A stretch of 64,000 bases of DNA from Verrucomicrobiota bacterium. Lineage in GTDB: Bacteria; Verrucomicrobiota; Verrucomicrobiia; Verrucomicrobiales; DEV007. Both the position numbers and the translations under genes were made by a program. Numbering within the stretch: the first letter of the stretch is position 1; each line of letters begins with the position of its first letter. The notes beneath the pieces were generated by a model that made no database searches, was not told where the DNA came from, and saw only the letters and a program-made list of their open reading frames with translations. The stretch is taken from contig JAGWVU010000007.1 of NCBI GenBank assembly GCA_018970725.1, positions 62,001-126,000 of the forward strand. Reading direction: 5' to 3'. Below, in pieces: positions 5,140 through 23,687 of the stretch.

Positions 5140-7878
5140 TCAGCGCAACCGCTTCGCCCGGTCGAACCGGGAGCGTCTCCGGTCCACTTCCGCCGGGTCT
5201 CCGGCCGCGGCAGCTGCTTGGGCTGGTGCGGGGCCCTTGCCGGGCGCTGGCGCCGGAGCACCGGCTGGCGGGGCGGACTCCCGGGCCGGTATCGCCGACC
5301 GGTAAGCGCCGGAGGGAGCCGACCGGGGAGACGCCTTTTCGCCCCTGGCTCCACGGCCGAACGAAATCCGGTTCCACCCCAGCCGGGTGGCCAACGCCTC
5401 CGCCAAAATCAAGAGCAGGGCGGCGCCCAGAAGCCAGGGCTGGATGCTGGCGAATTCCTTGGTCTCCGGTTGCTGCCAGACATCCGCCAGATTGATCCGT
5501 TCCTGACCCCCGGATTGGGCGGCCACCTGACGCAACTCCTCGACCCGGCTCCGGTCAAAGGTCCACTCCGGACTGCCCCCCACCACCACCGGACCGAACG
5601 GGATCGCCAGATCGCCCACCTGCACCGCCCCGCGGGTCAGCACTCCGTGTTCCAGACTGGATTTGGCCCGGAAATGCCCGGGCTCGAGACGCTCCCAAGC
5701 CACTTCCCGGACGCTTCCCTCTCCGGTCTTCGCCCCGTCCGCAAGGAAAACCCGGGGCGGAACCGCCAGACGCTGGAACCAGGTATCGTCATGGAGGAGG
5801 TCGATGCTCAACTCGGTGCCATCCAGCCGGGTCCGCAACCCGAGACCGGGCGGCAGCATTTCCCCCATGAGCCAGCGGGTCAGGGTTTGCGCAAAGTCCG
5901 CCATTTGCGGCCAAGCCCGGGTGGCAGCGGAAAATTCCCCGCCCAAGGGAAAACAGACGGCGGCGGTCCGGCCCAACCCGCGCTGCACGCAGGCCACCAG
6001 CGGCGCCTTGTATTCGTCCGTGGTCAAGGCCATGACCGACGTCTGCGGCCGGGCATAACTCAAATTGTAACCGTCCACCCGGGAGAGCCAGGCCAGGCTG
6101 TCCCGGGAGATCTCCAGCCACCTCCCGCTCGGCACCAACCCGACCGCCTCCTTGATGAACATCGACCTCGCCACCGCCACCGTCTCCTGCGCGAAGATGT
6201 TCGGCACCGTGGTGGCGTCGTCCGTGAAGAACATCCGTCCCTTGCCCAGTTTCGCGATGTCCTTGAGCAGGGCCGCATCCACGTCTTTCTCCGTCCCCAG
6301 CCCGATCACGCTCACGGACGCCCCCTCAGAAACCATTTCCCCGACGAGCCGCTTGTAGTCCCCCGGTTCCTCGGAGTCCGCCGCATCGGAAAACAGGATG
6401 AGGTGCCGCTGCCCCACCTCGGCCTTCTTGAGGTCCTCCCAACCCGCCTTGAGCCCCTCGTAAACAAAAATCCCACCGCCCGTGCTGCCGATGCGCCGGA
6501 CCCGGTTCACGATCGAACCCCGGTTCGGCCCCACCACCGTCAGCGGAACTTCCCGGTGCGGCGAGCTGTCGACCGCGTGGACCGTGACAAAGTCGAAATC
6601 CCCGAGCAACTCCACCGCCCGGGCCGCCCCTTCGTTCGCCAAATCCATTTTGCTCCTCCCTCCGGCCACCGTGGCCGACATCGAACCGGAACGATCCATC
6701 ACAATCGCCATGGCCACCGCCAGCTTGCGGTGCTCCGCTTTCAACTCCATCGAAACCGGAAGCAGCGGATCGATCGACGATTCAAAATACCCTCCCGCCC
6801 CGAAACTGCGGGTTCCCCCCGCCATCAGAAGGCCGCCGCCCTGGCGCCGGACGAAAAAGTCGATGGACGCGAGGAAGTCCGACGGGATCTCATGGGCGGG
6901 CACATTGTTCAGGATCAACACCTTGGCCCCCGTCAACTGCCCCGCATGCAGCCCGGCCGGCTCCATGATCTTTTCCACCGTGAATCCCTGCGCCGAAAGA
7001 ATGCGTTGCAACGGATCGTCCTGATAACGGGTCACCAAGAGAACCCTCGGACCGGACACGATCTCCACCCATCCCTCGAACCGGTTGTTCCCTGAATAAG
7101 CGTCCTCCACGGACAACCGGGCCTCATAGCGGTGGGCCCCGGGCTCCACGAGACGCGCCGCGAACCGGAGCGATCCCGTCCCCCCCTTGATCTCCACCGT
7201 CTCCTCCCGCTCTTCCCCGCCATCCCGGGAAATCAAGACCGGCACGGTGCCGTCCCGGTTGCCGCGCACCTCGATTTCCACGATGAACGGTTCCCCGGGC
7301 CGCTTCCGGGATGGCAACCGCAGATCCAGAATCTGGTAGTCCGTCGCTTCCGGCGGAGCCACGAGGCGGAAATCCAGCGGAACCCCGGCGCCTTGCAGCT
7401 TCAAACCCACGTCCCCAAGCGGCTCCGTGGCATAACCATCGGTAAAAACCAGCATCCGCGCGTGCCGGTCCGGATCCAGCGAAGCCAGCGTCGTCTCGAT
7501 CGCCAACCGGGTCCGCGTATGGTTCGCCGCCCCGGCCACCGTGCCGGTCTCCGGTCCCGTCAATTCAACGGCCTCCCCGGAGAAATTGACCCAGCGGATC
7601 CGGTCGGACCTCGAGGGCATGGAACGCCGCAACAACTGTTCCCACTCCCGGAAGGAACGCTCCACGAGGGAGCCCGCCGATTGGGACCGGTCCACCAGCA
7701 CCCACAGGTCCATGCCCCGCTCCGTCCGGTTGATCCGCGGATCCGCCAGCACCAGGACCAACACCAGCAGGCAGGCCCCGCGCAACGGCCGCCAGAGACG
7801 GAGCCCCTTCCAAAACCAGCCGCAGATCAAAAGGACCGGCAGTAGGAAAAGCCATTGGGGAGAACTGAAGACGACCAT
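5140..7878 (-). CDS. VWA-domain membrane protein (BatA-like, glutamine-amidotransferase-like region)
   Basis: 912 residues from the ATG at 7878. Two N-terminal hydrophobic segments (WLFLLPVLLICGWF and ACLLVLVLVLA) and one near residues 820-840 (PWLLGAALLLILAEALA) indicate a membrane protein with a large domain between. A von Willebrand A domain with a complete MIDAS start (VMDRSGSMS, about residue 394) lies in the middle. Before it, KVLILNNVPA and the following glycine-rich segment resemble the class-I glutamine-amidotransferase-like region common in these long PVC proteins. The C-terminal ~90 residues are a low-complexity Pro/Ala/Arg tail. Metal-dependent protein binding at the periplasmic side is likely; the partner is unknown. 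Confidence 0.75.
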   Translation of the reverse strand: MVVFSSPQWLFLLPVLLICGWFWKGLRLWRPLRGACLLVLVLVLADPRINRTERGMDLWVLVDRSQSAGSLVERSFREWEQLLRRSMPSRSDRIRWVNFSGEAVELTGPETGTVAGAANHTRTRLAIETTLASLDPDRHARMLVFTDGYATEPLGDVGLKLQGAGVPLDFRLVAPPEATDYQILDLRLPSRKRPGEPFIVEIEVRGNRDGTVPVLISRDGGEEREETVEIKGGTGSLRFAARLVEPGAHRYEARLSVEDAYSGNNRFEGWVEIVSGPRVLLVTRYQDDPLQRILSAQGFTVEKIMEPAGLHAGQLTGAKVLILNNVPAHEIPSDFLASIDFFVRRQGGGLLMAGGTRSFGAGGYFESSIDPLLPVSMELKAEHRKLAVAMAIVMDRSGSMSATVAGGRSKMDLANEGAARAVELLGDFDFVTVHAVDSSPHREVPLTVVGPNRGSIVNRVRRIGSTGGGIFVYEGLKAGWEDLKKAEVGQRHLILFSDAADSEEPGDYKRLVGEMVSEGASVSVIGLGTEKDVDAALLKDIAKLGKGRMFFTDDATTVPNIFAQETVAVARSMFIKEAVGLVPSGRWLEISRDSLAWLSRVDGYNLSYARPQTSVMALTTDEYKAPLVACVQRGLGRTAAVCFPLGGEFSAATRAWPQMADFAQTLTRWLMGEMLPPGLGLRTRLDGTELSIDLLHDDTWFQRLAVPPRVFLADGAKTGEGSVREVAWERLEPGHFRAKSSLEHGVLTRGAVQVGDLAIPFGPVVVGGSPEWTFDRSRVEELRQVAAQSGGQERINLADVWQQPETKEFASIQPWLLGAALLLILAEALATRLGWNRISFGRGARGEKASPRSAPSGAYRSAIPARESAPPAGAPAPAPGKGPAPAQAAAAAGDPAEVDRRRSRFDRAKRLR

Positions 7879-11414: not shown

Positions 11415-12782
11415 TCACTCACCGGCGCCGACCGCCTGCAGGGCGACACTCCCTAGTCCGGTAGCGGAGACGGCGAGAAAGGCGGTGTTGATCAGGGCCA
11501 TGAGGATGGCAATGGCCCATTTCAGGGGGGTCCGGGGACGAACCTGAGCGTCACTCAAAGTCACCAAAAAAATCAGCAACCCGATGACGGACGCTGCGCC
11601 CAGGATCAGGACGTTTTCTTCCACGCCCTGGACCAATCCCTTTGCCAGCTTGGAGAGCATCGCCACCGCTCCGGAGGCGATGGGAAAGGACATCACGGAT
11701 TGGGGGGTCACGAAGGCTCCGACGGCACTGGGGAGCGGTTGCCCGGTCGGCTCTTCACCGCTTTCCGCGGCTTCGGGAGCTTCGGCGGCGGCGCTTCTGG
11801 TCCCGCCGGGGATCGTCCGGGAGGATCGCGAGGGCGCCGGGCGGCGGCCCCGGGTCACGAAGAGGTCGGCCATGCGGAATCCGCCGCCTGGTTCCGTTTC
11901 CGGCGCGGCCGCTGGTTCCGGCGCTGGAGGGGAGACCGGCGCCGGGGCGGGGGCGGGAAGGACGGGCTCGGCTGGTGGAGGAGAGACGACGGGAGCGGCG
12001 AGAAGCCGGGCGCGCAAATCCGGCATGAGGAGGGAGAGCGATCCACCGGGGTCCTGTTTCCGGGCGGGGGCGATCTCGTCGTGGCCGAGGACGTATTGGA
12101 ATTGGAAGACGGTCGGATGATTCGCCTGGAGCCAGCGGAGCAGGGTGAGGAGGGATTCTTCCTGAGCCGGCGTGAATTGAAGGTAATAACCCGCCTGGGT
12201 GATGTTCGCCGTCTTCTCGACCCGGCGCACCTGATCCGCGGTGTAATACGTCTTGCGCGAGGAGGTCTTGTTCCAACCGGGTTCAAATCCCTGATCCGTC
12301 TGTTGCACGATCCCGGCCCCGCAGACTTCGATGCCCACCAGTTTGCTGGAGAGCGACTCCCCCAACCCGGGGTAAGAACTCCGGCCGGCGTGGGAGCCCC
12401 AACGGTTCAGCGGTGCGGTCTGGTAAATCCGGCCGGTGGCGGAGATGCAGAAGTAACAATGCTTGAGGCTGGCACCGTAACGGATCGTATTTTCCGCATC
12501 GGCATCTCCTTTCTCACTCCGTCCCGCGGTGAAGTGGACCACCGCCCCGACCGGATAGTTCCGGGGATAGGTTCCTTGGGTGGGCATCTTCAAAAACGTG
12601 GTGGCCCCGGGATACCAGAGGGCGGGGCCGGATGACCGGGTTCCCTCACTGTCCGGCCCGAGCCCGAGGGCATCGTAATCCGTGACCCAGTCCACGGCTT
12701 CGCCGCGGGTCTCTTCCGCTTCGAGATCGAGAAGATCGGCGATGTATTCAGCGGCTTCTCCGGGCAGGTCAGTCGGTGTCAT
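11415..12782 (-). CDS. N-acetylmuramoyl-L-alanine amidase (Amidase_2/PGRP type) with C-terminal membrane anchor
   Basis: 455 residues from the ATG at 12782, 29 bases after the upstream CHAT gene. The catalytic domain (about residues 55-260) is of the zinc amidase type: GAVVHFTAG (H83), SHAGRSSY, KLVGIEVCG and VLGHDEIAPARKQDPG (H234, D244). It would cut the bond between muramic acid and the stem peptide. A proline/alanine-rich linker follows (about 260-360). Then two hydrophobic segments (LILGAASVIGLLIFLV and WAIAILMALINTAFLAV) place the anchor at the C-terminus. No N-terminal signal peptide is visible, so export of the catalytic domain is unexplained. It is the last gene of the minus-strand operon with the lipase-CHAT and trypsin genes. 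Confidence 0.82.
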   Translation of the reverse strand: MTPTDLPGEAAEYIADLLDLEAEETRGEAVDWVTDYDALGLGPDSEGTRSSGPALWYPGATTFLKMPTQGTYPRNYPVGAVVHFTAGRSEKGDADAENTIRYGASLKHCYFCISATGRIYQTAPLNRWGSHAGRSSYPGLGESLSSKLVGIEVCGAGIVQQTDQGFEPGWNKTSSRKTYYTADQVRRVEKTANITQAGYYLQFTPAQEESLLTLLRWLQANHPTVFQFQYVLGHDEIAPARKQDPGGSLSLLMPDLRARLLAAPVVSPPPAEPVLPAPAPAPVSPPAPEPAAAPETEPGGGFRMADLFVTRGRRPAPSRSSRTIPGGTRSAAAEAPEAAESGEEPTGQPLPSAVGAFVTPQSVMSFPIASGAVAMLSKLAKGLVQGVEENVLILGAASVIGLLIFLVTLSDAQVRPRTPLKWAIAILMALINTAFLAVSATGLGSVALQAVGAGE

Positions 12783-12811: not shown

Positions 12812-15800
12812 TTAGAGATGGATGTCCGGGGAGCCGTAGAGCAGGTAATTTGCCCAATCCGCGCGACCGGCGTCGAAAAGTTCCTGACGGGCTTTGAGCA
12901 TGGCGGCTCCGAGAGTCAGGCCTTTGGCGAGGGAACGATAGAGCGAGATGGCGAAGGCCGCGGCGCTGTCATCCCCGACCTCCCAGCGGTTCGACACAAA
13001 GCCGCGGATCCCGGACCCGAGAATGCGGTGGGCCAGGCTGGTGGAGCCGCGGACGGCGTTGCGGATATCGTCCACCTTGGCGGTCTCACAGGCGTTGAGG
13101 AAAACGAGCATGGGCAGGCCTTCGAAGGACCGGGAGCGGAAGGGTTCCAGATCGTTCTCGGTGAGCATTTCCCCGCCCGGAAACATGAGACCGCCTTGCC
13201 GCGGGTCGGCCGTGTCGAACTTCCCGTGGCCGGCGTAGTGGACGAGGTCGAACCGCCCATCGGCGAGTGCCTGGAGAACCGCCGCCTTGGTCGCTTGCTG
13301 GGGACCGATCAGCGAGACCACCTCGATCAGGGGATCCTGCTGTAGTTCCTTGGCAATTTCGTCCGCTTCCTTCTCGGTTCCCGGGAGGTCCCCGGTCGGG
13401 TTGGCCACGATGAGGAGTTGGACTTTAGCGCCTTCACGCCGGTAGGGTGGCAGGATGGGCACCTCACCGGTGAACAATCCATGGCGGATGCCCTCGGTCA
13501 AAGCTGGCCGGAAGAGGGCTCCGGAGGGGAGCGGAAAGGCCAGCAGCTCGAAAGGAATGACCGACGCCGCCAGATCATGGAGCACGTCCCAGGATCTGCC
13601 CCGGTTCTGGAGAATGGATGTGATGACCGCTTTCGAAAAGACCCGCTCCGCGAGCAGTTTGCCGAGCTCATGCTGGCGCTTGAACGATGGAGGCACGCGA
13701 CCGAAGAGTTCCTCGAGACCGGACCAGTCCACGGGAATCCGTTCCTCGGCCACCGCTCCGCCGGTCCCGGGAGCACGGGAGAACTGGAGCCAAGAGTTGT
13801 GGCGTTCCCGGATCGAAAGATAAACCGGGGCCCGGATCGCCGCGGGGATCTTGGGCGGCAACTGCGTGAAGACGAGCGTCGACGGACCCTCGTCCCCGGC
13901 CAAACAACGCACCGCTTCGACCACCTCCGTGTAGTGATCCGGGTCATGCTCGCAAATGGTCAGCGCGGGAACCGGCCCGTCCTTCCGGGCGTGGACAAAG
14001 CCGCACACGATGGCATGGATCGAATCTGCGGCGCTCAGTCCGAAGCCTCGGCCAAAGGGGACCATGGCCACGGACTCGATCCCCTGGTCCTGGCAGGCTT
14101 CGACCACCTCGCGCACCGCGCGGTCAATCCGCTGCAACCACCAATCCTTTTCCTGCGACTCCTCGACGGATTCCAGGTCTGAAAGATCACCGATCGTCTT
14201 AGGGATGATGTAGCTGCCGGCGAGCCGATCGTCCTGGATGGCGAGGAAATTTTCGCGTTGCCCGCTATTCAAGTGACGCCCCAAAGCCCCGCCAAGGCGT
14301 TCGTCCAAGGCTCCATCCGCTCCGCGGAGCCTCGCGCTGCCGAGCACGAGCACGGCGTAGGCCTCCGTATCGAGCACCTCGGTGATGGAACCATTGAAAA
14401 GAGAGACCTGGGCCGGGGCGTCTTCCTGCTGCGTCTCCCGGTCTGCCAGCCGCCGCAGGCCCCGGAGAATCAGCGCGCTGATTTCATCGTGTCGCGTGGA
14501 GCGGAACAACGTCAGGTTTTCGTCTTTGCTCAAGCCGTTGTCAATCCAGCGCGTCCCCGCCGATGCGTCCCCCCAGAACATGCCCTGGCCGAACCCGGCG
14601 AGCCCCGCCCAGAGATCGTCCAGGGAATGCGGCAACAGGGCTGCATCTTCCCCCAGAGCCTGGCGATCATACTTTTGGCACAGTTCCCGGAAGAGCGGAT
14701 TGCCTTCGCGGAGGGAGGCTTCCGTCGCCAGTCCTTCCCGATCTCCCTGGAGGACGCGGGCCACATCTCCGGCCACGCCGCCGAATCCGCCGATGACATA
14801 GAGAGGTTTGCCCGCCTGAAGATGAAGGAAAGCTTCTTCCGCCTGCCCGGGAAACCGTCCCTTGTAGCCGACTTTGTCGTCTTCGGATTCCTTGGGCAGC
14901 CTGCGGCCTCCAAGAATGATGCGGACATCGCAGTCCCGGGCCATCGCGAGACGGGTTTGGGACAACTCCAAGGCCTGCGCTTCCGGCGCTTCGGCGACTA
15001 CGTCAGGTTTCTTTGCAGGGATGGGCCGCAGCTCCGCCCGGATCGACTCCAGAACCTCCTGTCTCTTCTCGAGGACAAAGCGGGCCACGTAACAACGGAG
15101 CAGGTATTTCCGGGCATCATGGTCTTTGTCGCCGGAATCATTCAAATAGCGCCAATGAGCCAAGGTCAGGTCCGAGAGCAACCGGGAGAAGGATTGATCG
15201 ACGCTGCCATAGGCCAGCGTGGCGCCGGCGCGGATCAGACAGAGGGCCAGATGTTTGATGGTGCCATAAATGTGGGCCTGCAAGACCCCTCCTCCGTCGC
15301 AGGCAGTGCCCGCACAATCCGGGGAAACTTCGGAGATGGAGGCGGGGATGTCCGGGCTGAAGTGCGAGAGTGAGAGGGCCACGACCTTGCCGCGCAAGGG
15401 CACGGTGGGAACCCGGCGGAGCAGTTCGCGGGACAGGGTGGACGGCGTGGCAAAGCGGACCCGGGGGAAAGAGTGCCGGATGAGGTTGATCTCACTGAGC
15501 GGCAGGGGGGGATCCGGATACAAGACCAGACTGGCTCCGGTGGAGGCCAAAGTGCCTTGGGCGAAGTCCACCAACTCCGGAGGGCGGGACAGGTAGAAGG
15601 CGTGAAAAGGCAAATGCTGGCGTTGGAACACCAGTGGGGCGGTGAGGTGGAAGTGAAGGTGCCTCAACCAGACGAGGAGGATTTCGTCGAGAATGGAGTC
15701 CGCCTGCTCCGCCAACTGCTTCTCATCTTCCGAAGGATTCCAGACCAAGGTGGGGGAATTTCCCGCGTATCGCGGGCTGAGCCGCTCTTGCGTGCGAAGA

Positions 15801-17512
15801 ATCTGGATCGTGACCACCGGCATGCCGAGCCGCTTGCAATGGAGCAGCCGTTCCTGACAGCGCAATGAGGCCGCGAAGGAATCGGTCCGCAGCACCAGGC
15901 TGAGCGAGCCCGATTCACGGAAGGTGGCAGCGAGGTTTTGGGGTTGGATCGACTCGGCCGGAGGCACCAACGAAACGAAATCCCGCAGGACGGAAGCGTT
16001 GAAGCGGGCGTTGAGTTGCTCAAGCGGGATCTTATGGTGCGCATCATCGTTCTCCTCAAAATTCAGAATCACCTGGACAGGTTTGAGAGGGCCATTGGAA
16101 ACGGCCCCATCCCCGGCAAGGCGGCGGCACAGCGCCTTGGCCACGTCCCGGATCACCGCCCGGTTCTTCTCTCCCAGGGTGGCAGCCTTTGTGGCAGAGT
16201 CGGAAGGCACCAAACGATGCTGAACCAGATCGGGAACGGGCAAAGGCCGGCTTCCGTCGAGATAGACCGGGATGACGAGCAAGGAACCGGGACCGGTTGG
16301 ATTCGTGGCCAGATCGAGGAACCAGTGGCAGGATTCAAGGAAGCTGGCGTCGCCCATAGCCGGACCGTCAAGGAGCAGGACGACCACGAGCAGTTGGTGG
16401 TCGGTCCGCTGCGCGGAAAGCGCCGCCACCTTGGCTCGCACCGTCCCGACGTGATGCCCGGCGAAAACCGGGATGTTGACCCCGGTCTCCACGTCGGCCC
16501 TCAGATTGGAGCGATGACAGAGAAAGGAAAACAGGGCTTCCGCCGTCTGCGGGCAAAGCTTGCCGTTCTGGGACTCCGGGCTCCACAAGAGGTGGACGAC
16601 GACGGGCGGTTCCCCGCTCGTCTCGACAGGCTCCACCGGGGGGAGGATCGCCCGCTTTCGTGCGGGCGGGGTCGGTCCGGGGACCGGAATGATCGGGGAC
16701 GTCACCGCCATCGCCGGGACGGGTCCCCGGTCGGCAGGAGCCAAACCGGCTTTCGCGGCGAGCAGTTCGAGATACCCGGGAAGACGGTGATCTTGCAAAC
16801 CGTCGAAAAAGCGCGTGTTCTCCGCCCGGGTGGACTCACCCGCCGGGGCCCGGCGCAAGTCCTCCTGCAGATCCGCCCATTCGTCCTCCGTCAGCAAGGA
16901 CTCCCCTCCCCGTCGTGAATCGCCGAGCGGCACGAGTTCCGCGACGTGGGCATAACCGGGGGGCAACCGGGTCACCACGTCCTCCCCGTGAACGAAACGG
17001 AAACAACGCCCGCGGTAATGGTGGTTGAAGAAGTCCGCGAACCCCTGCTGCCCGGCGCAGGGCTGGCCGAAGGTGTAAATCCCGGCCACCAAAGAGGCGT
17101 ATTGGGAAAACTCGGCGGCCAGGATGGTGGCAAGCGCTCCGCCCAGACTGTGCCCGGTCAGCCAGACCCGCTTGGTTTGCAGGCCATGCGCGGAGAGAAG
17201 CCGCCAGGCCTCCGACCTCACCTCCTCGAAGCACTCGGCAAATCCACCATGCAGCGTGGCGTATCCCCGGTCCACCGGAAGAAAGTTCAGGTTGCGCAAC
17301 CAATTCTCCAGGTTGGCCGAACCCCGGAAGGCGAGGACCAGATCGGTCTCGTTGGACACCACCATCCCCCGGGTTTCGTTGACCTGAAAATAGTCGCACC
17401 GGGAAAAGCGGCCCTCCTCCAGCGCCTCCGCTCTTCCCACGGATTCATCCCGGTAAGCCCACTGGGAGACGAGGGCCAGAAGATGGGCCCGATTCCAATC
17501 CACGTTGTTCAT
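12812..17512 (-). CDS. Giant lipase/TIR-like/SLOG/macro-like/CHAT-protease fusion protein
   Basis: 1566 residues. Residues 10-255 form a class 3 lipase with GHSLGG (S122), EDVVTRLPPG (D178) and DHRLPGY (H242), the expected Ser-Asp-His triad. Residues about 300-470 and 478-600 look like two TIR-like domains; the second has SLVLRTDSFAASLRCQERLL and PVVTIQIL. Residues about 705-975 resemble SLOG Rossmann domains: VVALSLSHF, ATLAYGSVD, VRIILGGRRL, GRFPGQAEEA, LYVIGGFGG. Residues about 1035-1205 look macro-like (NGSITEVLDTEAYAVLVLGS, then ESVAMVPFGRGFG). Residues about 1280-1566 are a CHAT caspase-like protease with HYAGHG (H1429) and LNACET (C1475). There is no signal peptide. The lipase and CHAT calls are firm; TIR, SLOG and macro are motif-level inference. 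It sits 30 bases after the trypsin gene and is probably co-transcribed. Confidence 0.85.
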   Translation of the reverse strand: MNNVDWNRAHLLALVSQWAYRDESVGRAEALEEGRFSRCDYFQVNETRGMVVSNETDLVLAFRGSANLENWLRNLNFLPVDRGYATLHGGFAECFEEVRSEAWRLLSAHGLQTKRVWLTGHSLGGALATILAAEFSQYASLVAGIYTFGQPCAGQQGFADFFNHHYRGRCFRFVHGEDVVTRLPPGYAHVAELVPLGDSRRGGESLLTEDEWADLQEDLRRAPAGESTRAENTRFFDGLQDHRLPGYLELLAAKAGLAPADRGPVPAMAVTSPIIPVPGPTPPARKRAILPPVEPVETSGEPPVVVHLLWSPESQNGKLCPQTAEALFSFLCHRSNLRADVETGVNIPVFAGHHVGTVRAKVAALSAQRTDHQLLVVVLLLDGPAMGDASFLESCHWFLDLATNPTGPGSLLVIPVYLDGSRPLPVPDLVQHRLVPSDSATKAATLGEKNRAVIRDVAKALCRRLAGDGAVSNGPLKPVQVILNFEENDDAHHKIPLEQLNARFNASVLRDFVSLVPPAESIQPQNLAATFRESGSLSLVLRTDSFAASLRCQERLLHCKRLGMPVVTIQILRTQERLSPRYAGNSPTLVWNPSEDEKQLAEQADSILDEILLVWLRHLHFHLTAPLVFQRQHLPFHAFYLSRPPELVDFAQGTLASTGASLVLYPDPPLPLSEINLIRHSFPRVRFATPSTLSRELLRRVPTVPLRGKVVALSLSHFSPDIPASISEVSPDCAGTACDGGGVLQAHIYGTIKHLALCLIRAGATLAYGSVDQSFSRLLSDLTLAHWRYLNDSGDKDHDARKYLLRCYVARFVLEKRQEVLESIRAELRPIPAKKPDVVAEAPEAQALELSQTRLAMARDCDVRIILGGRRLPKESEDDKVGYKGRFPGQAEEAFLHLQAGKPLYVIGGFGGVAGDVARVLQGDREGLATEASLREGNPLFRELCQKYDRQALGEDAALLPHSLDDLWAGLAGFGQGMFWGDASAGTRWIDNGLSKDENLTLFRSTRHDEISALILRGLRRLADRETQQEDAPAQVSLFNGSITEVLDTEAYAVLVLGSARLRGADGALDERLGGALGRHLNSGQRENFLAIQDDRLAGSYIIPKTIGDLSDLESVEESQEKDWWLQRIDRAVREVVEACQDQGIESVAMVPFGRGFGLSAADSIHAIVCGFVHARKDGPVPALTICEHDPDHYTEVVEAVRCLAGDEGPSTLVFTQLPPKIPAAIRAPVYLSIRERHNSWLQFSRAPGTGGAVAEERIPVDWSGLEELFGRVPPSFKRQHELGKLLAERVFSKAVITSILQNRGRSWDVLHDLAASVIPFELLAFPLPSGALFRPALTEGIRHGLFTGEVPILPPYRREGAKVQLLIVANPTGDLPGTEKEADEIAKELQQDPLIEVVSLIGPQQATKAAVLQALADGRFDLVHYAGHGKFDTADPRQGGLMFPGGEMLTENDLEPFRSRSFEGLPMLVFLNACETAKVDDIRNAVRGSTSLAHRILGSGIRGFVSNRWEVGDDSAAAFAISLYRSLAKGLTLGAAMLKARQELFDAGRADWANYLLYGSPDIHL

Positions 17513-17542: not shown

Positions 17543-18343
17543 TCAGGCCAAAGCGCTTTCCTCCGGGCCCTGTTTGACCCATCGGGCGACTTGTTCCCCG
17601 GTCTCCCCGCTCAACAAGGGCCCCAGATTGGTCCGGTTGTCCTCGGAGGTATGGGCATGGATCGCCACGACCTGCAACCGGGCCCGTCCCGCGGAAGTGG
17701 GATGGATCAGGAACACCGGGCCCCCGCTCTGGCCCTCCGTCGTGTCTGTCCGGTAGTGAAGAAGTCCATCCCGGATCTCCACGATCTCATCCTCATGGAA
17801 ATATTGAAATCCCGGTTCAAGATCCTCCACGACCGGATACCCGCTGACGCAAACCTTTTGCCCGACCAAACATGCCGGGTCCCCGGAACAACCGAATTCA
17901 AACGGGGTGGTGACGTGCGGGAAAGGCTTGGGCAAACCGATGACGCCGAAATCGCGCGCCGGGGTTCTGAGGCTCCCGGGGCCCCGTTCCCAACCGGAGA
18001 AGAGACGGTAGCCGGTCTGGTGACCGAAAGGAAACTTGTGGCCGTGGCGACCCGGACTGACCCGGATCTCTGCCAGAGGTGTGCCAACCTTCTCATGACC
18101 GCTGGGATACTCCAGACAATGCGCCGCCGTCACCACCTTGTCCGGAGCCACCAACCAGCCGGTGGCAAACGGCACCCACTTGGAAAGAAACGGCCAACGT
18201 CCCGGTTCCCGATACTCCAAACAGCAAATCAAGGACCATGGAGCCTTCTTCGGGTCCTCAACGAGTTTGCGGCCCTCCTCACCAAGCACCGCACGAGTCG
18301 CTACCGCCGGGGAAAGCAGTCGCTCATCCAAATCGACTTCCAT
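17543..18343 (-). CDS. Trypsin-like serine protease, no export signal
   Basis: 266 residues from the ATG at 18343. The chymotrypsin-fold triad is present: VVTAAHC (H75), RDFGVIGL (D131) and GQSGGPVF (S206). The surrounding strand pattern is typical (FATGWLVAPDKV before the histidine; VCVSGYP and QVVAIHAH around the serine). There is no signal peptide or transmembrane segment, so it should act in the cytoplasm, unlike DegP/HtrA, and no PDZ domain is present. It lies between a lipoprotein gene and the lipase-CHAT gene on the same strand. Signal-less trypsin-like proteases are known as effector modules in bacterial conflict systems, which fits this setting. Confidence 0.87.
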   Translation of the reverse strand: MEVDLDERLLSPAVATRAVLGEEGRKLVEDPKKAPWSLICCLEYREPGRWPFLSKWVPFATGWLVAPDKVVTAAHCLEYPSGHEKVGTPLAEIRVSPGRHGHKFPFGHQTGYRLFSGWERGPGSLRTPARDFGVIGLPKPFPHVTTPFEFGCSGDPACLVGQKVCVSGYPVVEDLEPGFQYFHEDEIVEIRDGLLHYRTDTTEGQSGGPVFLIHPTSAGRARLQVVAIHAHTSEDNRTNLGPLLSGETGEQVARWVKQGPEESALA

Positions 18344-18408: not shown

Positions 18409-18984
18409 TCAGGAACGCACCTCGCTCCAACTCCGCATTTTCAATTTCGCGAGCTGGGCTTTGAAATCCGCCGCGCTGTCTTCCCGCTTTTGCCGCCAAG
18501 GTTTCGCCACCCCTCCAAATGCCCCGATCAAGACACCCACCGCAGCCGATTCATTGGTGCCCCGGGTCATGCCGATCGCTTCCTTGAACGCCGCATACGC
18601 CTCCACGACGCCGGCGGCGGATTCCTCGGACAGATCCACATACCCCGTCAGCTTTTTCCCCAAGGCATCCGCCTCCCCGCCCTTTTCCTCGATCCAAGTG
18701 TTGACCGCGGCCGCGAGCAATTTGTAACTCCGCGCGGCCGTTTCCGGCGCATCCCCTGCCAAGGCTTCGGCATCGTTTTTGATGACGCGAACCCTTGAAA
18801 GTCCCCGTCTCTGCTCGGCCGCCGGGGGGACGACGCTCCGCGCCTCACCAACCTTTTTTGCCACACCGGCTGATTGCTTCGCGACGGAGAGCGCTTGCGT
18901 CATGTCGGGAGGGGTATTGCAACCGCTGGCCGCCAAGCACATCGGAACCACACAGCAAACCAATTTTGGGAACGTCGGTTTCAT
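18409..18984 (-). CDS. Lipoprotein, unknown function
   Basis: 191 residues. A signal sequence ending in a lipobox (CLAASGC, about residues 16-22) marks a lipoprotein. The rest is alanine/lysine/glutamate-rich and helical, with no recognised domain. It is the first gene of the minus-strand block (lipoprotein, trypsin, lipase-CHAT, amidase); the gap to the next gene is 65 bases. A purine-rich AAAAGGCGAAG precedes the ATG at 18984. It could be a surface-exposed or periplasmic component of the same system, but nothing in its sequence says which. Confidence 0.68.
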   Translation of the reverse strand: MKPTFPKLVCCVVPMCLAASGCNTPPDMTQALSVAKQSAGVAKKVGEARSVVPPAAEQRRGLSRVRVIKNDAEALAGDAPETAARSYKLLAAAVNTWIEEKGGEADALGKKLTGYVDLSEESAAGVVEAYAAFKEAIGMTRGTNESAAVGVLIGAFGGVAKPWRQKREDSAADFKAQLAKLKMRSWSEVRS

Positions 18985-19179: not shown

Positions 19180-21390
19180 ATGATCACCCCGTTGCGCCCC
19201 GAGTGCCTCCTCTCCCCTGAAGCTGAAGCGGCGATCGATCTGGCTCGCTCCCTTCGTGAGGCGCTGTCCGGGGACGACAGCCTTTCCGAGACCCTCAAGC
19301 GGTTGGAGGGTGACGGAACGCGATCTCCAATGCGCGCCTTGGATCCGGCGGCGAGAGACCTCATCATCGGCTTTGAAACAGGGGGCAGGGCTTACTACCA
19401 GAAGAAGCTGACGCGCCCCAACTGGCCCGGTTTTTTTTCCGGTGTGACCATTGGCTTCGGCTATGATTTGCGATCGGATGACGCCGCCCGGTTGGCGCAA
19501 GCGTGGGGCACCATCCTCACCCCGGAACCACTCGGGCGGCTTTCCGCCGGTTGCGGGTTGCGGGGCGAAAAAGATACCGAACGGATCAAGGAAATCCTGG
19601 GGACGGTGCAGGATATTGTCATTCCTTGGGAAGCGGCAGAGCGGGTCTTTCTCGATCAAACCCTACCGCGTTACCGGAAACTTCTCCTGGACCATTTGCC
19701 GGAGATCGCGACGGCGCCGCCGAAGTGTGAGGGAGCCCTTCTGAGCCTCGTCTTCAACCGCGGCGCGGTTTTCCGCGAGGAAGGAGATCGTTTTGCGGAG
19801 ATGCGGGAGATCCGGGGTTTGGCGGAGACCGGGCAGTGGGAAGGGATCCCCGCCCGGATCCGGTCGATGAAACGGTTATGGCCCCAAAGTCCGGCACCTT
19901 ACGGGTTGCAGGGAAGGCGCGAAGCCGAGGCGCTCCTCTTTGAGGAAGGCCTGCGCGAGAGAACCTCTGTGGTGACCGCCCTTCCCTTGGAACCTCCTCC
20001 CCGTCCGGACCCCTTGGCCGTTGCTCCCTCCCCGGGCCCAACCGGGAGCGATATCTCCGAAAGATCGCTGCCCGCTCCCACCGACCTTTCCGCGCCCGTG
20101 AGCAACGTCCCGACCGCCCCTGCCGCGCCGCCGGTCCCTCCAGCCTTTCCGCCCGTGCCCGCCCCTGCCAAATGGCCTGAAGACGCGGCACCGGTGGCGT
20201 TCCGTGCCTTGCCGGAGGCCGGGAGCCTCACCCGGAACATGCCCGAGGGGGCTGAGGAATCCACTGAACCGGGCGAAGGCGACCTGGCCCTGGATCGTTT
20301 CATGGACGGCGCCCGCGGAGTAATGGACTTCACCCAGGCGCGCGCGTCTTCTTACTGGCCGTCACGGGATGAGACCTCCACCGAATACGCCCACCTCGCC
20401 ACGCTCGGAGCCCCGGATTCCTTTGAACTGACCCCGGAAGCCATCGAAGTCCTCATCGCCGCCAACCGGTTCGACCCGGAGAGGGAACAGTCCATCTTCG
20501 CCCTAGGCATCCGCGGCAGCTTCCTGACTTCGGACGGTCACGAGGCGGAACGACGGGACCGGATCTCCCTCACCGAGACGCGTCCGGACCATGTCCACTT
20601 CAAGTGCACGGTTGGCTTTTACCATCGGGCAGAAGGCAAGATCACCCTCTACGCCGGTTCCACTGTCCCCTGCCCTTACTACATGCGGAACTACCATCTC
20701 CGCATGACAGGCAAGGCCCATCAAACCAAGGAAGGCTGCAACCTGATGCCTTGCGGTTGTTACCTCTCCCGGGTCGGCACCCATTCCAAGGGAACCATCG
20801 ATCCCGCGGTGCGCACCACGGATCCCGTCAATCCCCTCGCAGACGCGTGGGTAACGGTCTTGCGAAGCAGCAGCGATGTCGGCTTCGGCACCCACGACCA
20901 CTGGGACCGCACCCAGCCTTATGACAACATTCACTGCTCCTACTATCTGAACGAAAGTCCCAAGCACGAAGCCTTCTTCTCCTCCGCCGGTTGCACCACG
21001 GTCCGGGGGCGCAAAGACAGCAGCACGGACCAATTCGGCAAGTTCCAGAAAACGCTCCTCCAGATCGGCAAAGGACGGCGCATTGATTACCTTCTGCTCA
21101 CCGGCAAGGAATATGCCCTCGCTGCCGAATCCTTGCGCCCGGGAGGTTCGGGGACACCGGCCTCGTCGCTCACCCGGCTCCGGACTGGATCGATGGGTGA
21201 GGAGGTGCGGCGTCTGCAGCAAAAACTGGGCTTCGTGGGTAGCGGGTATTTCGGTGCGTCCACAAAAAAGGCTTTGGCCGAGTATCAGCGAAGTCACGGG
21301 GTCACCTCCGACGGGATTTATTCTCCGGATCTGGACGTGAAGTTCCAGTGGAACGTCTTCCACCTCCAGACCGCCGGAACCTTGGCTTGA
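19180..21390 (+). CDS. Lysozyme-like (GH24 type) / NIH-SSxGC module / peptidoglycan-binding fusion
   Basis: 736 residues. The N-terminal domain (about 50-260) resembles phage-type lysozymes and pesticin: LIIGFETGG (catalytic candidate E66), then SGVTIGFGYDL and a later ALLSLVFNRG helix. A proline-rich linker covers about 265-385. The middle domain (about 440-650) begins FALGIRGSF and carries NIH (H585) and SSAGCTT (C605). A similar His...SxGC arrangement ends the caspase protein, and it recalls L,D-transpeptidase active sites. The C-terminal 664-725 is a peptidoglycan-binding domain (LRTGSMGEEVRRLQQKLG). No signal peptide is seen. It is followed 44 bases later by the caspase gene. Confidence 0.72.
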   Translation: MITPLRPECLLSPEAEAAIDLARSLREALSGDDSLSETLKRLEGDGTRSPMRALDPAARDLIIGFETGGRAYYQKKLTRPNWPGFFSGVTIGFGYDLRSDDAARLAQAWGTILTPEPLGRLSAGCGLRGEKDTERIKEILGTVQDIVIPWEAAERVFLDQTLPRYRKLLLDHLPEIATAPPKCEGALLSLVFNRGAVFREEGDRFAEMREIRGLAETGQWEGIPARIRSMKRLWPQSPAPYGLQGRREAEALLFEEGLRERTSVVTALPLEPPPRPDPLAVAPSPGPTGSDISERSLPAPTDLSAPVSNVPTAPAAPPVPPAFPPVPAPAKWPEDAAPVAFRALPEAGSLTRNMPEGAEESTEPGEGDLALDRFMDGARGVMDFTQARASSYWPSRDETSTEYAHLATLGAPDSFELTPEAIEVLIAANRFDPEREQSIFALGIRGSFLTSDGHEAERRDRISLTETRPDHVHFKCTVGFYHRAEGKITLYAGSTVPCPYYMRNYHLRMTGKAHQTKEGCNLMPCGCYLSRVGTHSKGTIDPAVRTTDPVNPLADAWVTVLRSSSDVGFGTHDHWDRTQPYDNIHCSYYLNESPKHEAFFSSAGCTTVRGRKDSSTDQFGKFQKTLLQIGKGRRIDYLLLTGKEYALAAESLRPGGSGTPASSLTRLRTGSMGEEVRRLQQKLGFVGSGYFGASTKKALAEYQRSHGVTSDGIYSPDLDVKFQWNVFHLQTAGTLA

Positions 21391-21434
21391 GGTCCCTCGA
21401 GGACGGGCATTTGGCAATTCAATCATTCACCACC

Positions 21435-23687
21435 ATGTTCGGAAACAAACGCAAGGATACTGGGACGGCCCGGGCTCTGCTGGTCACCCTGACCCACATC
21501 GATCCGGCGAAGCACAACCAGTGGGATGGACGCAATGGTTGTTCAGGGTGCGGGCTGGACGCGGAGCACATCGCGGATTTGCTCCGTCCGGCGGGTTACG
21601 AAATCACCTGGATCAAAGACGCCGAGGCCACCAAGGCCGCCGTGCTCAAAGCGCTGCGCGCCGCTGCCGCAGCCACGCAGCCCGGGGACAACTTCTTTTT
21701 CTTTTACGCCGGTCACGGCGGGCAAATGCCGGATCGGAATGGCGACGAGGAAACGGAAAGCCCCGGCGGGGTCGGACGGGACGAAACCCTGGTGCTCTTC
21801 GATGCGGAACTGATCGATGATGCCTTGGATGAAGTCTGGCTCTCCTTCAGGTCGGGGACGGTGATCCACATGATCAGTGACAGCTGCAATTCCGGCACGA
21901 ACTATCGCGGCCGGGCGACCCAGGGCCCGAGCCCGATCCGGCCCATGGCGCGAGCGGCGGCAAAAAAGATGAAAGCCCGCCTCCTGCACATGGGAGGCTG
22001 CCGGGACGGATTGACCAGCGCCGGAAGCGATCAGGGGGGCGCGTTCACCCGGGCGCTTCACGCCTGCTGGCACGGTGGCCGCGGTGCCTCCACCTGGAAA
22101 GACCTGCACGAAGACGTCTGCGCGCACATCAGCGGACAAGTCCCGCAAATCAGCACCTATGGCCCGGGGGCGGGCGATTTGCTGCAGGAACGTCCGTTCC
22201 AGGGAGTGGCCGCGCAAGGCCCGGAAATCCTCACCGCCACCCGTGGCTCCGCTCTGGAAGATGCCTTCCGCTCCGGTGAACTGACGCCGACCGGTCTCCT
22301 GAGCAACGAGGAAACCCGCGGGGTCGAGGAACTGCCGATCGACGAAGCGCAGGCGCGGCAAGCGACGCGCTGGCTCATGCATCATTTCGGCGACCTGATC
22401 CACGCAGCCGGAGAAGGCACGCCGTTCACTCCGGAGATTCTCACCGCGATCGTGTGTCAGGAGACGGCTTACTTCTGGCTTCCCTTGGTCAAGAAGTTGG
22501 AAAAAGATCCCGATCGTTTCGATTGTCCCGAGGAATTGCCCGAACTGATCCTGGCGCGCTGCGTTCTGGATGCCTCCGGCGATTGTCCTGGGACCAGCCG
22601 CAGCGCGTTTCCTGTCAACACGGCTGCATTCCGGGCCAAGTATGGTGAAGCCTTCACCAACCTCTTGATCGCGGAAGCCAATGCCACCCGCGCCTTGCGA
22701 GACTACGCCCCGAAGCGATGGGTTTACAAAGGGTATGGGATTTTCCAATACGACCTTCAGTTCGTGGAGAAGGACCCGGACTTTTTCCGGGAGCGCCGGT
22801 GGCAGGATTTTTCCGCTTGTGCGAGGCATTGCGTCGAAGAACTCAAGGTCACCTACGCCCGGGAGAACCAGGACCTTTGGGAAGCCGTCCGGGCCTACAA
22901 CGGGGCCGGTCCCGCCGCCCGGAAATACCGGGACAATGTGAAGCAGTTCGCCGTTTGGACCGAGGACGAAATCAGCAAACTCGAGTCTTCCGCCGGAACC
23001 CGGAACACGCCCCGGGCCCCGAGGGTTCTGATGCCCTCATCCAAGCCCAAACGGACCCAGGCCGAGTTGGCCGCCCAACTCAGCGCGCTCGGAATCGATC
23101 GCACCAAACATCCCCTCGTCATCGTTGGCATCCGGGGCTACTACCGCGACACGATGGGCAACCCCGGGGTGAACGATCGGGGGATCTATGACGATGCGAT
23201 CTTCATCGACAGTCCGGATGCGTTCGCCGCCTTCAACGGGAACACGGATCCGAGCAGTTACCGCCCCGGCAAAGGCTTTGAGCCAAGCGCCCGGGGCCGC
23301 GCCACCCTCAAACCGGGGGTTTGGTATGCCTACCGTTTCGCGGATCACGGCAGCAAGGTTCATGGCTCTTACCCGGCAATTTGCCAACGACTCGGCGAGG
23401 TCACGGTGATCCGGGACGGAAATCCGCCTTACGAACACACCGGTGCGGACTTCGGGATCAACATCCACAAGGGCGGTTATCAAGGGACGTCCAGTGAGGG
23501 CTGCCAAACCATTCACCCGGACCAATGGCCCGGATTTTATGCTTTGGCCAAAGACTTGGCCCAGCGGTATCACGGAGCCCAATGGAATGCCGTGGTCATC
23601 CCGTATGCCCTGATTGACGAAAGTGTCAGCCCGGTCCCGGTGCCGATGACAGGAGAGCCGACGGAAAGCGTGGACTCGATCGCATGA
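21435..23687 (+). CDS. Caspase-like protease / lytic-transglycosylase-like / NIH-SSxGC fusion
   Basis: 750 residues from the ATG at 21435; an in-frame extension to 21348 overlaps the preceding gene. Residues 15-280 form a peptidase C14 (orthocaspase-type) domain with FFFFYAGHGGQ (H94) and MISDSCNSG (C151), the catalytic dyad. Residues about 310-530 resemble a lysozyme/lytic-transglycosylase fold: TPEILTAIVCQETAYFW (E343), then YGIFQYD and a VRAYNGAG motif. Residues about 570-740 start LVIVGIRGYY and contain NIH (H678) and SSEGCQTI (C690), resembling L,D-transpeptidase active sites and the module in the neighbouring gene. No signal peptide is visible. A caspase fused to wall-active domains is unusual. 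Confidence 0.8.
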   Translation: MFGNKRKDTGTARALLVTLTHIDPAKHNQWDGRNGCSGCGLDAEHIADLLRPAGYEITWIKDAEATKAAVLKALRAAAAATQPGDNFFFFYAGHGGQMPDRNGDEETESPGGVGRDETLVLFDAELIDDALDEVWLSFRSGTVIHMISDSCNSGTNYRGRATQGPSPIRPMARAAAKKMKARLLHMGGCRDGLTSAGSDQGGAFTRALHACWHGGRGASTWKDLHEDVCAHISGQVPQISTYGPGAGDLLQERPFQGVAAQGPEILTATRGSALEDAFRSGELTPTGLLSNEETRGVEELPIDEAQARQATRWLMHHFGDLIHAAGEGTPFTPEILTAIVCQETAYFWLPLVKKLEKDPDRFDCPEELPELILARCVLDASGDCPGTSRSAFPVNTAAFRAKYGEAFTNLLIAEANATRALRDYAPKRWVYKGYGIFQYDLQFVEKDPDFFRERRWQDFSACARHCVEELKVTYARENQDLWEAVRAYNGAGPAARKYRDNVKQFAVWTEDEISKLESSAGTRNTPRAPRVLMPSSKPKRTQAELAAQLSALGIDRTKHPLVIVGIRGYYRDTMGNPGVNDRGIYDDAIFIDSPDAFAAFNGNTDPSSYRPGKGFEPSARGRATLKPGVWYAYRFADHGSKVHGSYPAICQRLGEVTVIRDGNPPYEHTGADFGINIHKGGYQGTSSEGCQTIHPDQWPGFYALAKDLAQRYHGAQWNAVVIPYALIDESVSPVPVPMTGEPTESVDSIA

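Follow-up and report, generated by a model that had tools for sequence, protein, structure and literature searches.

A Verrucomicrobiota fusion protein with lipase, TIR, SLOG, macro and CHAT domains as a possible nucleotide-gated, Thoeris-like effector

A stretch of 64,000 nucleotides from a Verrucomicrobiota bacterium (contig JAGWVU010000007.1, positions 62,001 to 126,000; hereafter the window) contains an open reading frame for which an initial annotation, made from the sequence alone, proposed a multidomain product. Lipase, TIR-like, SLOG, macro-like and CHAT protease domains were thought to be joined in one polypeptide, with two catalytic effectors placed around nucleotide-sensor-like domains, an architecture believed to be undescribed. 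The locus therefore raises the question of whether such a protein is real and, if it is, in what kind of system it would act.

The reading frame runs without interruption on the minus strand from an ATG at 17512 to a stop at 12812 (Table 1), and its codon-position GC content (0.69/0.46/0.77, against a window GC of 64%) is typical of a gene. Homologs align almost end to end at about 35% identity; with the codon pattern, this shows that it is not a chance open reading frame. Hydropathy analysis of the protein found one stretch above threshold, located inside its second domain (domain A), and revealed neither a signal at the N-terminus nor a clear membrane helix. Within the protein, the lipase, SLOG and CHAT assignments rest on Pfam, and the TIR and macro assignments on homologs, profile comparison and AlphaFold2 models with structural alignment.

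Table 1. Features of the fusion gene and its operon. Positions are those of the window; residues are those of the fusion protein.
Feature	Residues	Position	Strand	Remarks
Main ORF		12812..17512	minus	1566 aa; Lipase_3, Rossmann-like, TIR, SLOG cluster 2, macro, CHAT
Class-3 lipase domain	1-265	16718..17512	minus	Pfam Lipase_3 (PF01764) 1.8e-23, over cutoff
Lipase triad	S122; D178; H242	17147-17149; 16979-16981; 16787-16789	minus	
Pro-rich linker, lipase to domain A	266-302	16607..16717	minus	Low confidence
Rossmann-like domain A	about 303-474	16091..16606	minus	Family unsettled
TIR domain	477-615	15668..16084	minus	Structure, profiles, homologs
SLOG cluster 2 domain	707-1024	14441..15394	minus	GRFPGQAEE motif
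Macro domain	1031-1211	13880..14422	minus	Separate AlphaFold2 model, pLDDT 83.7
CHAT caspase-like protease with its N-terminal half	about 1262-1561	12830..13729	minus	
CHAT dyad	H1429; C1475	13226-13228; 13088-13090	minus	
Amidase_2 (N-acetylmuramoyl-L-alanine amidase)		11415..12782	minus	455 aa from likely ATG; Pfam 2.8e-15
Trypsin-like serine protease		17543..18343	minus	266 aa; Pfam Trypsin_2 6.2e-9; TAAHC, GQSGGP
Small putative lipoprotein		18409..18984	minus	191 aa; LAASGC near N-terminus; no Pfam match

The active-site residues at both ends of the protein are intact. The Pfam Lipase_3 match spans residues 59-185, S122 sits in a GHSLGG motif, and the triad is kept in all fused and adjacent relatives in the alignment. 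At the other end, Pfam CHAT (PF12770) matches residues 1363-1561 (5.4e-30, over cutoff), with H1429 in HYAGHG and C1475 in NACE, and both columns are invariant in the aligned proteins (10/10). The same genome also encodes a divergent Lipase_3 paralog (G000:C82:8947-9507, L002/L044) in which GHGPGG replaces GHSLGG and the catalytic serine is missing; judged by this motif, the paralog may be inactive.

The region between these ends (residues 258-1375) was modelled by AlphaFold2 with 14 relatives, at moderate confidence (pLDDT 72.5, pTM 0.74). Foldseek with the whole 1118-residue model returned no match at E 0.001 or better, and domain-level structural alignments were therefore relied on. Domain A gave one structural match, AdiA (Z 10.5, 142 residues, 4.3 A); its reading as a second TIR had no profile support (hhalign 0.7%), and it is kept as Rossmann-like. 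The following segment adopts a TIR fold, matching the TIRs of MyD88 (Z 11.9) and SARM1 (Z 10.8) and the related DNPH1 fold (Z 10.4). Its family profile matches plant TIR proteins in the PDB (E 2e-4), and hhalign against neighbouring TIR genes gives 97.6%. Pfam scored no TIR match in the window protein itself, and TIR_2 was scored in co-linear homologs, namely at 2.5e-6 in L026 (locus numbers are given as L), which has the full architecture, and at 4.2e-10 in a shorter TIR-SLOG relative.

TIR domains with NADase activity carry a catalytic Glu within a WCxxE motif. In the alignment, R555 (15848-15850) occupies this column in the window protein, and box 1 of its TIR is degenerate as well (NFEENDD). 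The column holds Asp in L025, L027 and L028, and Glu in L026 and in all five lipase-less CHAT relatives. With Arg at this position, the TIR of the window protein is probably a pseudo-enzyme and not an NADase, and in the window lineage a scaffolding or regulatory role is more likely for this domain than an enzymatic one. The same residues bear on a different reading, in which the protein is a self-contained sensor. The signal would be made in cis by its own TIR, or by its SLOG if this hydrolyses nucleotides, and would be read or cleared by its macro domain, which would leave no need for a separate ThsB. The presence of TIR and SLOG in one chain, the Glu retained in six relatives and the fact that no TIR_2 or ThsB_TIR gene separate from the fusion was found on the window's contig (C9) are in keeping with such a sensor, but the Arg and Asp substitutions and the degenerate box 1 speak against it, and we consider it unlikely.

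The SLOG domain is matched by Pfam LD_cluster2 (PF18163) at residues 722-952 (E 5e-25; 89 bits, cutoff 25.3), and its GRxPGxxEE motif is intact. Its closest structural match is the SLOG of ThsA (Z 15.3, 190 residues, 2.9 A, 16% identity), followed by TRPM2/TRPM8 chains. ThsA is the receptor of Thoeris for cADPR isomers. For the macro region no Pfam Macro match was found in the window protein at E up to 1, and structure provided the assignment: the model aligns with PARP9 macro 2 (Z 17.9, 163 residues, 2.4 A), and Foldseek gives 4e-7 with prob 1.00. In hhalign, a local macro alignment reaches 86% and a narrower macro alignment 38%, compared with 0.5% for TIR and 0.1% for SLOG. The N-domain of M17 (leucine) aminopeptidases was considered for the same region; it is close in structure (Z 16.6, against 17.9 for macro), but profile comparison favours macro (86% vs 10.5%). 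The similarity of both domains lies at the level of the fold (12-18% identity), and ligand binding is putative.

The protein is thus confirmed as a single chain of Lipase_3, Rossmann-like, TIR, SLOG, macro and CHAT domains. Of the initial annotation, the single 1566-residue protein (on the minus strand), the two intact active sites, at exactly the residues named and conserved in relatives, and all five domain calls held, including the TIR-like and macro-like segments that had been read by eye. Structure prediction of the middle, which the annotation had suggested as a check, was run as the 258-1375 model and the separate macro model, and it places TIR, SLOG and macro folds there; the TIR is further backed by the Pfam scores of co-linear homologs, the macro by profile comparison, and the SLOG by Pfam. 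The domain order and the intact active-site residues also fit the idea of two catalytic effectors around nucleotide-sensor-like domains. The annotation had in addition linked the middle domains to NAD- or ADP-ribose-derived nucleotides; the SLOG, macro and TIR folds agree with this, but given R555 the TIR cannot be assumed to be an NAD enzyme.

The fusion gene is part of a tightly packed series on the minus strand, in the order lipoprotein, trypsin-like, fusion and Amidase_2 genes, separated by 65, 30 and 29 nt respectively, in which the lipoprotein gene is probably the first of the operon. For the trypsin and lipoprotein genes, no conserved counterparts were found as neighbours in the other loci. 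The amidase, which carries two C-terminal hydrophobic segments by hydropathy, shares 48-50% identity with the domain that begins the fused protein of the genus-mates L027 and L028. By this Rosetta-stone argument, the amidase forms a set with the lipase, TIR, SLOG, macro and CHAT domains.

The trypsin-like gene immediately upstream of the fusion invites a proteolytic explanation. The CHAT protease or the adjacent trypsin, triggered by protein-protein sensing, might cut flexible linkers and so free lipase and amidase zymogens, with the nucleotide-type folds serving as scaffolds. The long, Pro-rich linker behind the lipase would suit this (the model opens with four 10-residue blocks at pLDDT 23-31), and bacterial immunity includes known cases of proenzymes activated by proteases (PMC12799240). 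However, the SLOG motif and the Gly-Ala and loop positions of the macro domain are among the most conserved columns of the alignment, which is unexpected for inert scaffolds, and such a cascade seems improbable to us.

A lipase, a peptidoglycan amidase and proteases are also typical of the arsenals of exported lytic toxins or predation factors directed against other cells, and a divergent two-gene unit on the plus strand near the operon (19180-23687), which encodes a peptidoglycan-binding domain and a caspase, could be read in the same way. Against export stand the lack of a signal or clear membrane helix by hydropathy, the intracellular nature of TIR, SLOG, macro and CHAT domains, and the fact that no secretion genes were noticed adjoining the fusion gene; this explanation is very improbable. 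As regards the divergent unit itself, the peptidoglycan-binding domain belongs to a 736-aa protein whose N-terminus is lysozyme-like by eye. The second, caspase-family protein (750-779 aa) has YAGHG and SDSC motifs, and its C-terminal part resembles, by eye, a lytic transglycosylase followed by a domain similar to part of the 736-aa protein.

A search for related loci with the single protein gave no matches, and an alignment-based scan succeeded. Relatives of the middle region occur in 8 of the 75 genomes of the family, and the search for the same architecture found the lipase-fused form in every genome of the window's genus (3/3, one copy being split by a contig end into L028 and L029) and twice in G159 of a sister genus. 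Among 84,980 species genomes scanned, one MAG each of Planctomycetota, Myxococcota and Pseudomonadota carries the TIR-SLOG-macro-CHAT core with no lipase attached, and further phyla have TIR-SLOG proteins of shorter length. Within the phylum, SLOG cluster 2 is rare (8/388 sampled genomes). The lipase-fused proteins form one group (support 100/99) that adjoins five TIR-SLOG-macro-CHAT proteins (100/100). Since the core occurs without lipase in three other phyla, only the addition of the lipase (and amidase) is limited to the window lineage, and the core is not unique to it. An amidase-lipase-TIR-SLOG-macro-CHAT fusion was also seen in a MAG labelled Akkermansia muciniphila (L066, CAMCXS010000086.1); this genome (G027) groups in the window's genus, and the label looks wrong.

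The neighbourhoods of relatives contain similar activities in other arrangements. In L027 and L028 the amidase is part of the fusion; in the window, L030 and L042 it is a neighbouring gene, and in L040 it lies two genes away. The neighbour in L030 is an Amidase_3 gene directly upstream. Of 14 unfused SLOG loci, 3 have Lipase_3 within 6 kb, where 0.04 would be expected (P about 9e-6), and Amidase_2 within 7 kb in 2 of 14 (P about 0.003, but 0.06 at 6 kb, so that the value depends on the chosen distance), where the P values assume random placement, were computed after the loci were seen and ignore the clustering of defence genes. L042 (6716-17430) holds the same activities without the fusion: DUF4062-Amidase_2, TIR-SLOG, a 637-aa protein, an astacin/matrixin-like metalloprotease and Lipase_3 are encoded on one strand, and the opposite strand carries a TIR gene. 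The 637-aa protein has no Pfam match, and its family recurs in L032. In L040 (9202-17833), Amidase_2-SH3 and a patatin-like protein with hydrophobic stretches precede TIR-SLOG on one strand. The N-terminus of this patatin is related to a 156-161-aa protein encoded near the TIR-SLOG genes of L035, L036 and L075, for which no Pfam match was found in L036 and L075.

Genes of the ThsB type are found beside several relatives. In L031 a ThsB-like TIR gene and a lipase gene lie upstream of the TIR-SLOG-CHAT gene, the ThsB-like gene being the nearer of the two; in L039 a ThsB gene adjoins the TIR-SLOG gene (PADLOC ThsB 2.5e-58); and in L078, L074 and L079 ThsB_TIR genes (1e-16 to 1e-18) do so. Relatives also give weak, sub-cutoff matches to ThcB4 of Thoeris type III. 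The TIR-SLOG loci L034 (269-5418) and L077 (55-5596) share related nearby genes, including an Nmad2 protein (scored in L034), and could be mobile or defence islands common to several phyla.

At the window locus itself, PADLOC and NCBIfam assigned no named system, and PADLOC noted only the similarity of the CHAT domain to BovA, which is weak (6.5e-11), and the caspase in the nearby gene. In Thoeris, SLOG is the receptor of type I and macro the ADPR-type sensor of the TM-macro type II (PMC11204291). The window system resembles type I (ThsB TIR with SIR2-SLOG ThsA) in that TIR and SLOG occur in one system, in its ThsA-like SLOG and in the ThsB-like genes beside relatives. It differs in lacking SIR2, with CHAT protease and lipase as effectors, in having TIR, SLOG and macro in one chain, in a SLOG of Pfam cluster 2 and in the absence of ThsB at the locus. 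With type II it shares a macro domain as presumed ADPR-type sensor and the membrane as presumed target, but here the membrane would be attacked by an enzyme, the lipase, in place of a clustering TM domain, and SLOG and CHAT are added. The type IV effector is a caspase-like protease (as cited in PMC12847820). Going by that citing paper, TIR is likewise coupled to a caspase-fold protease, and the differences are a CHAT-type protease, a single polypeptide with TIR, SLOG, macro and lipase, and the lost TIR Glu. A receptor-type domain fused to an effector is thus present at the level of the fold, and a ThsB-type gene is absent from the operon; we think that the system falls outside Thoeris as defined, yet would work like it.

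Other systems share single elements. TPR-CHAT of type III-E CRISPR and the Borvo protease also use a CHAT effector, but no CRISPR parts were noticed at the window locus, and those systems are not known to include lipase, TIR, SLOG or macro (PMC10952713). The MoxR-vWA/FtsH ternary conflict systems (Kaur et al. 2020, PMC7159879), in whose main text the words lipase and CHAT are absent, are represented by bpMoxR, ivWA and fvmX7 beside the lipase-fused homolog of L025 (5185-19328). An actin-like and a nucleoside deoxyribosyltransferase-like protein were also seen there. MoxR and vWA genes were found adjacent only to L025 and are absent beside the window copy; the window's vWA gene (5140-7878) lies several genes away and matches general VWA models only. 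In plants, EDS1 binds its ligand via its EP domain. The EDS1 family offers a lipase-like protein downstream of TIR-made nucleotides (PMC10022894), but the window lipase keeps the full triad, no EP domain was recognised in the protein, and kinship beyond the hydrolase fold is not claimed. The SLOG clusters were reportedly defined by Burroughs et al. in 2015. The claim of an undescribed architecture stands in so far as no published account was found in the literature searched, which did not extend to that survey, and is qualified by the recurrence of the lipase-less core in three phyla.

Fold similarity to NAD-metabolite receptors, ThsB neighbours and the set of hydrolases together point to a nucleotide-gated death effector, and we lean towards the view that the fusion protein is the executioner of a Thoeris-like abortive-infection system that attacks protein, lipid and wall. 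Infection would be sensed by an enzyme that uses NAD, probably a TIR encoded apart from the fusion, which would generate an NAD- or ADP-ribose-derived signal; it counts against this view that no separate TIR_2 or ThsB_TIR gene was found on the window's contig. The SLOG and/or macro domain of the cytosolic fusion protein would bind the signal, with the TIR acting as an oligomerisation or regulatory module. Binding would free the CHAT protease to cleave cell proteins and the class-3 lipase to open the inner membrane, and the loose linker may first be cut by CHAT or the co-encoded trypsin to free the lipase. The co-encoded amidase, fused in relatives, would then reach and cut the peptidoglycan, so that the cell would be lysed or disabled before phage maturation. 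Lipase_3 enzymes can act on other esters, and membrane attack by the lipase is thus an assumption. We infer the ligand, the trigger, the receptor domain that gates the response, the membrane as lipase target, the order of events, the outcome and the anti-phage role.

To our knowledge, each Thoeris system described so far has a single receptor domain and a single effector activity. In the fusion, one chain unites two folds of the receptor type with two to three hydrolases that are directed at different parts of the cell, and its unfused cousins distribute similar activities over separate genes (for a lipase or patatin, an amidase, a protease and TIR-SLOG). More tentatively, it may represent a Thoeris-like class in which SLOG and macro receptors in one chain gate a joint demolition by CHAT, lipase and amidase, the ancestral TIR now being a scaffold. 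The fused and unfused forms together provide a Rosetta-stone map by which function may be assigned within SLOG cluster 2, a broad family that is uncharacterised, and the fusion would link TIR nucleotide signalling to cell death of the caspase-like and lipolytic kinds in a way that lends itself to testing.
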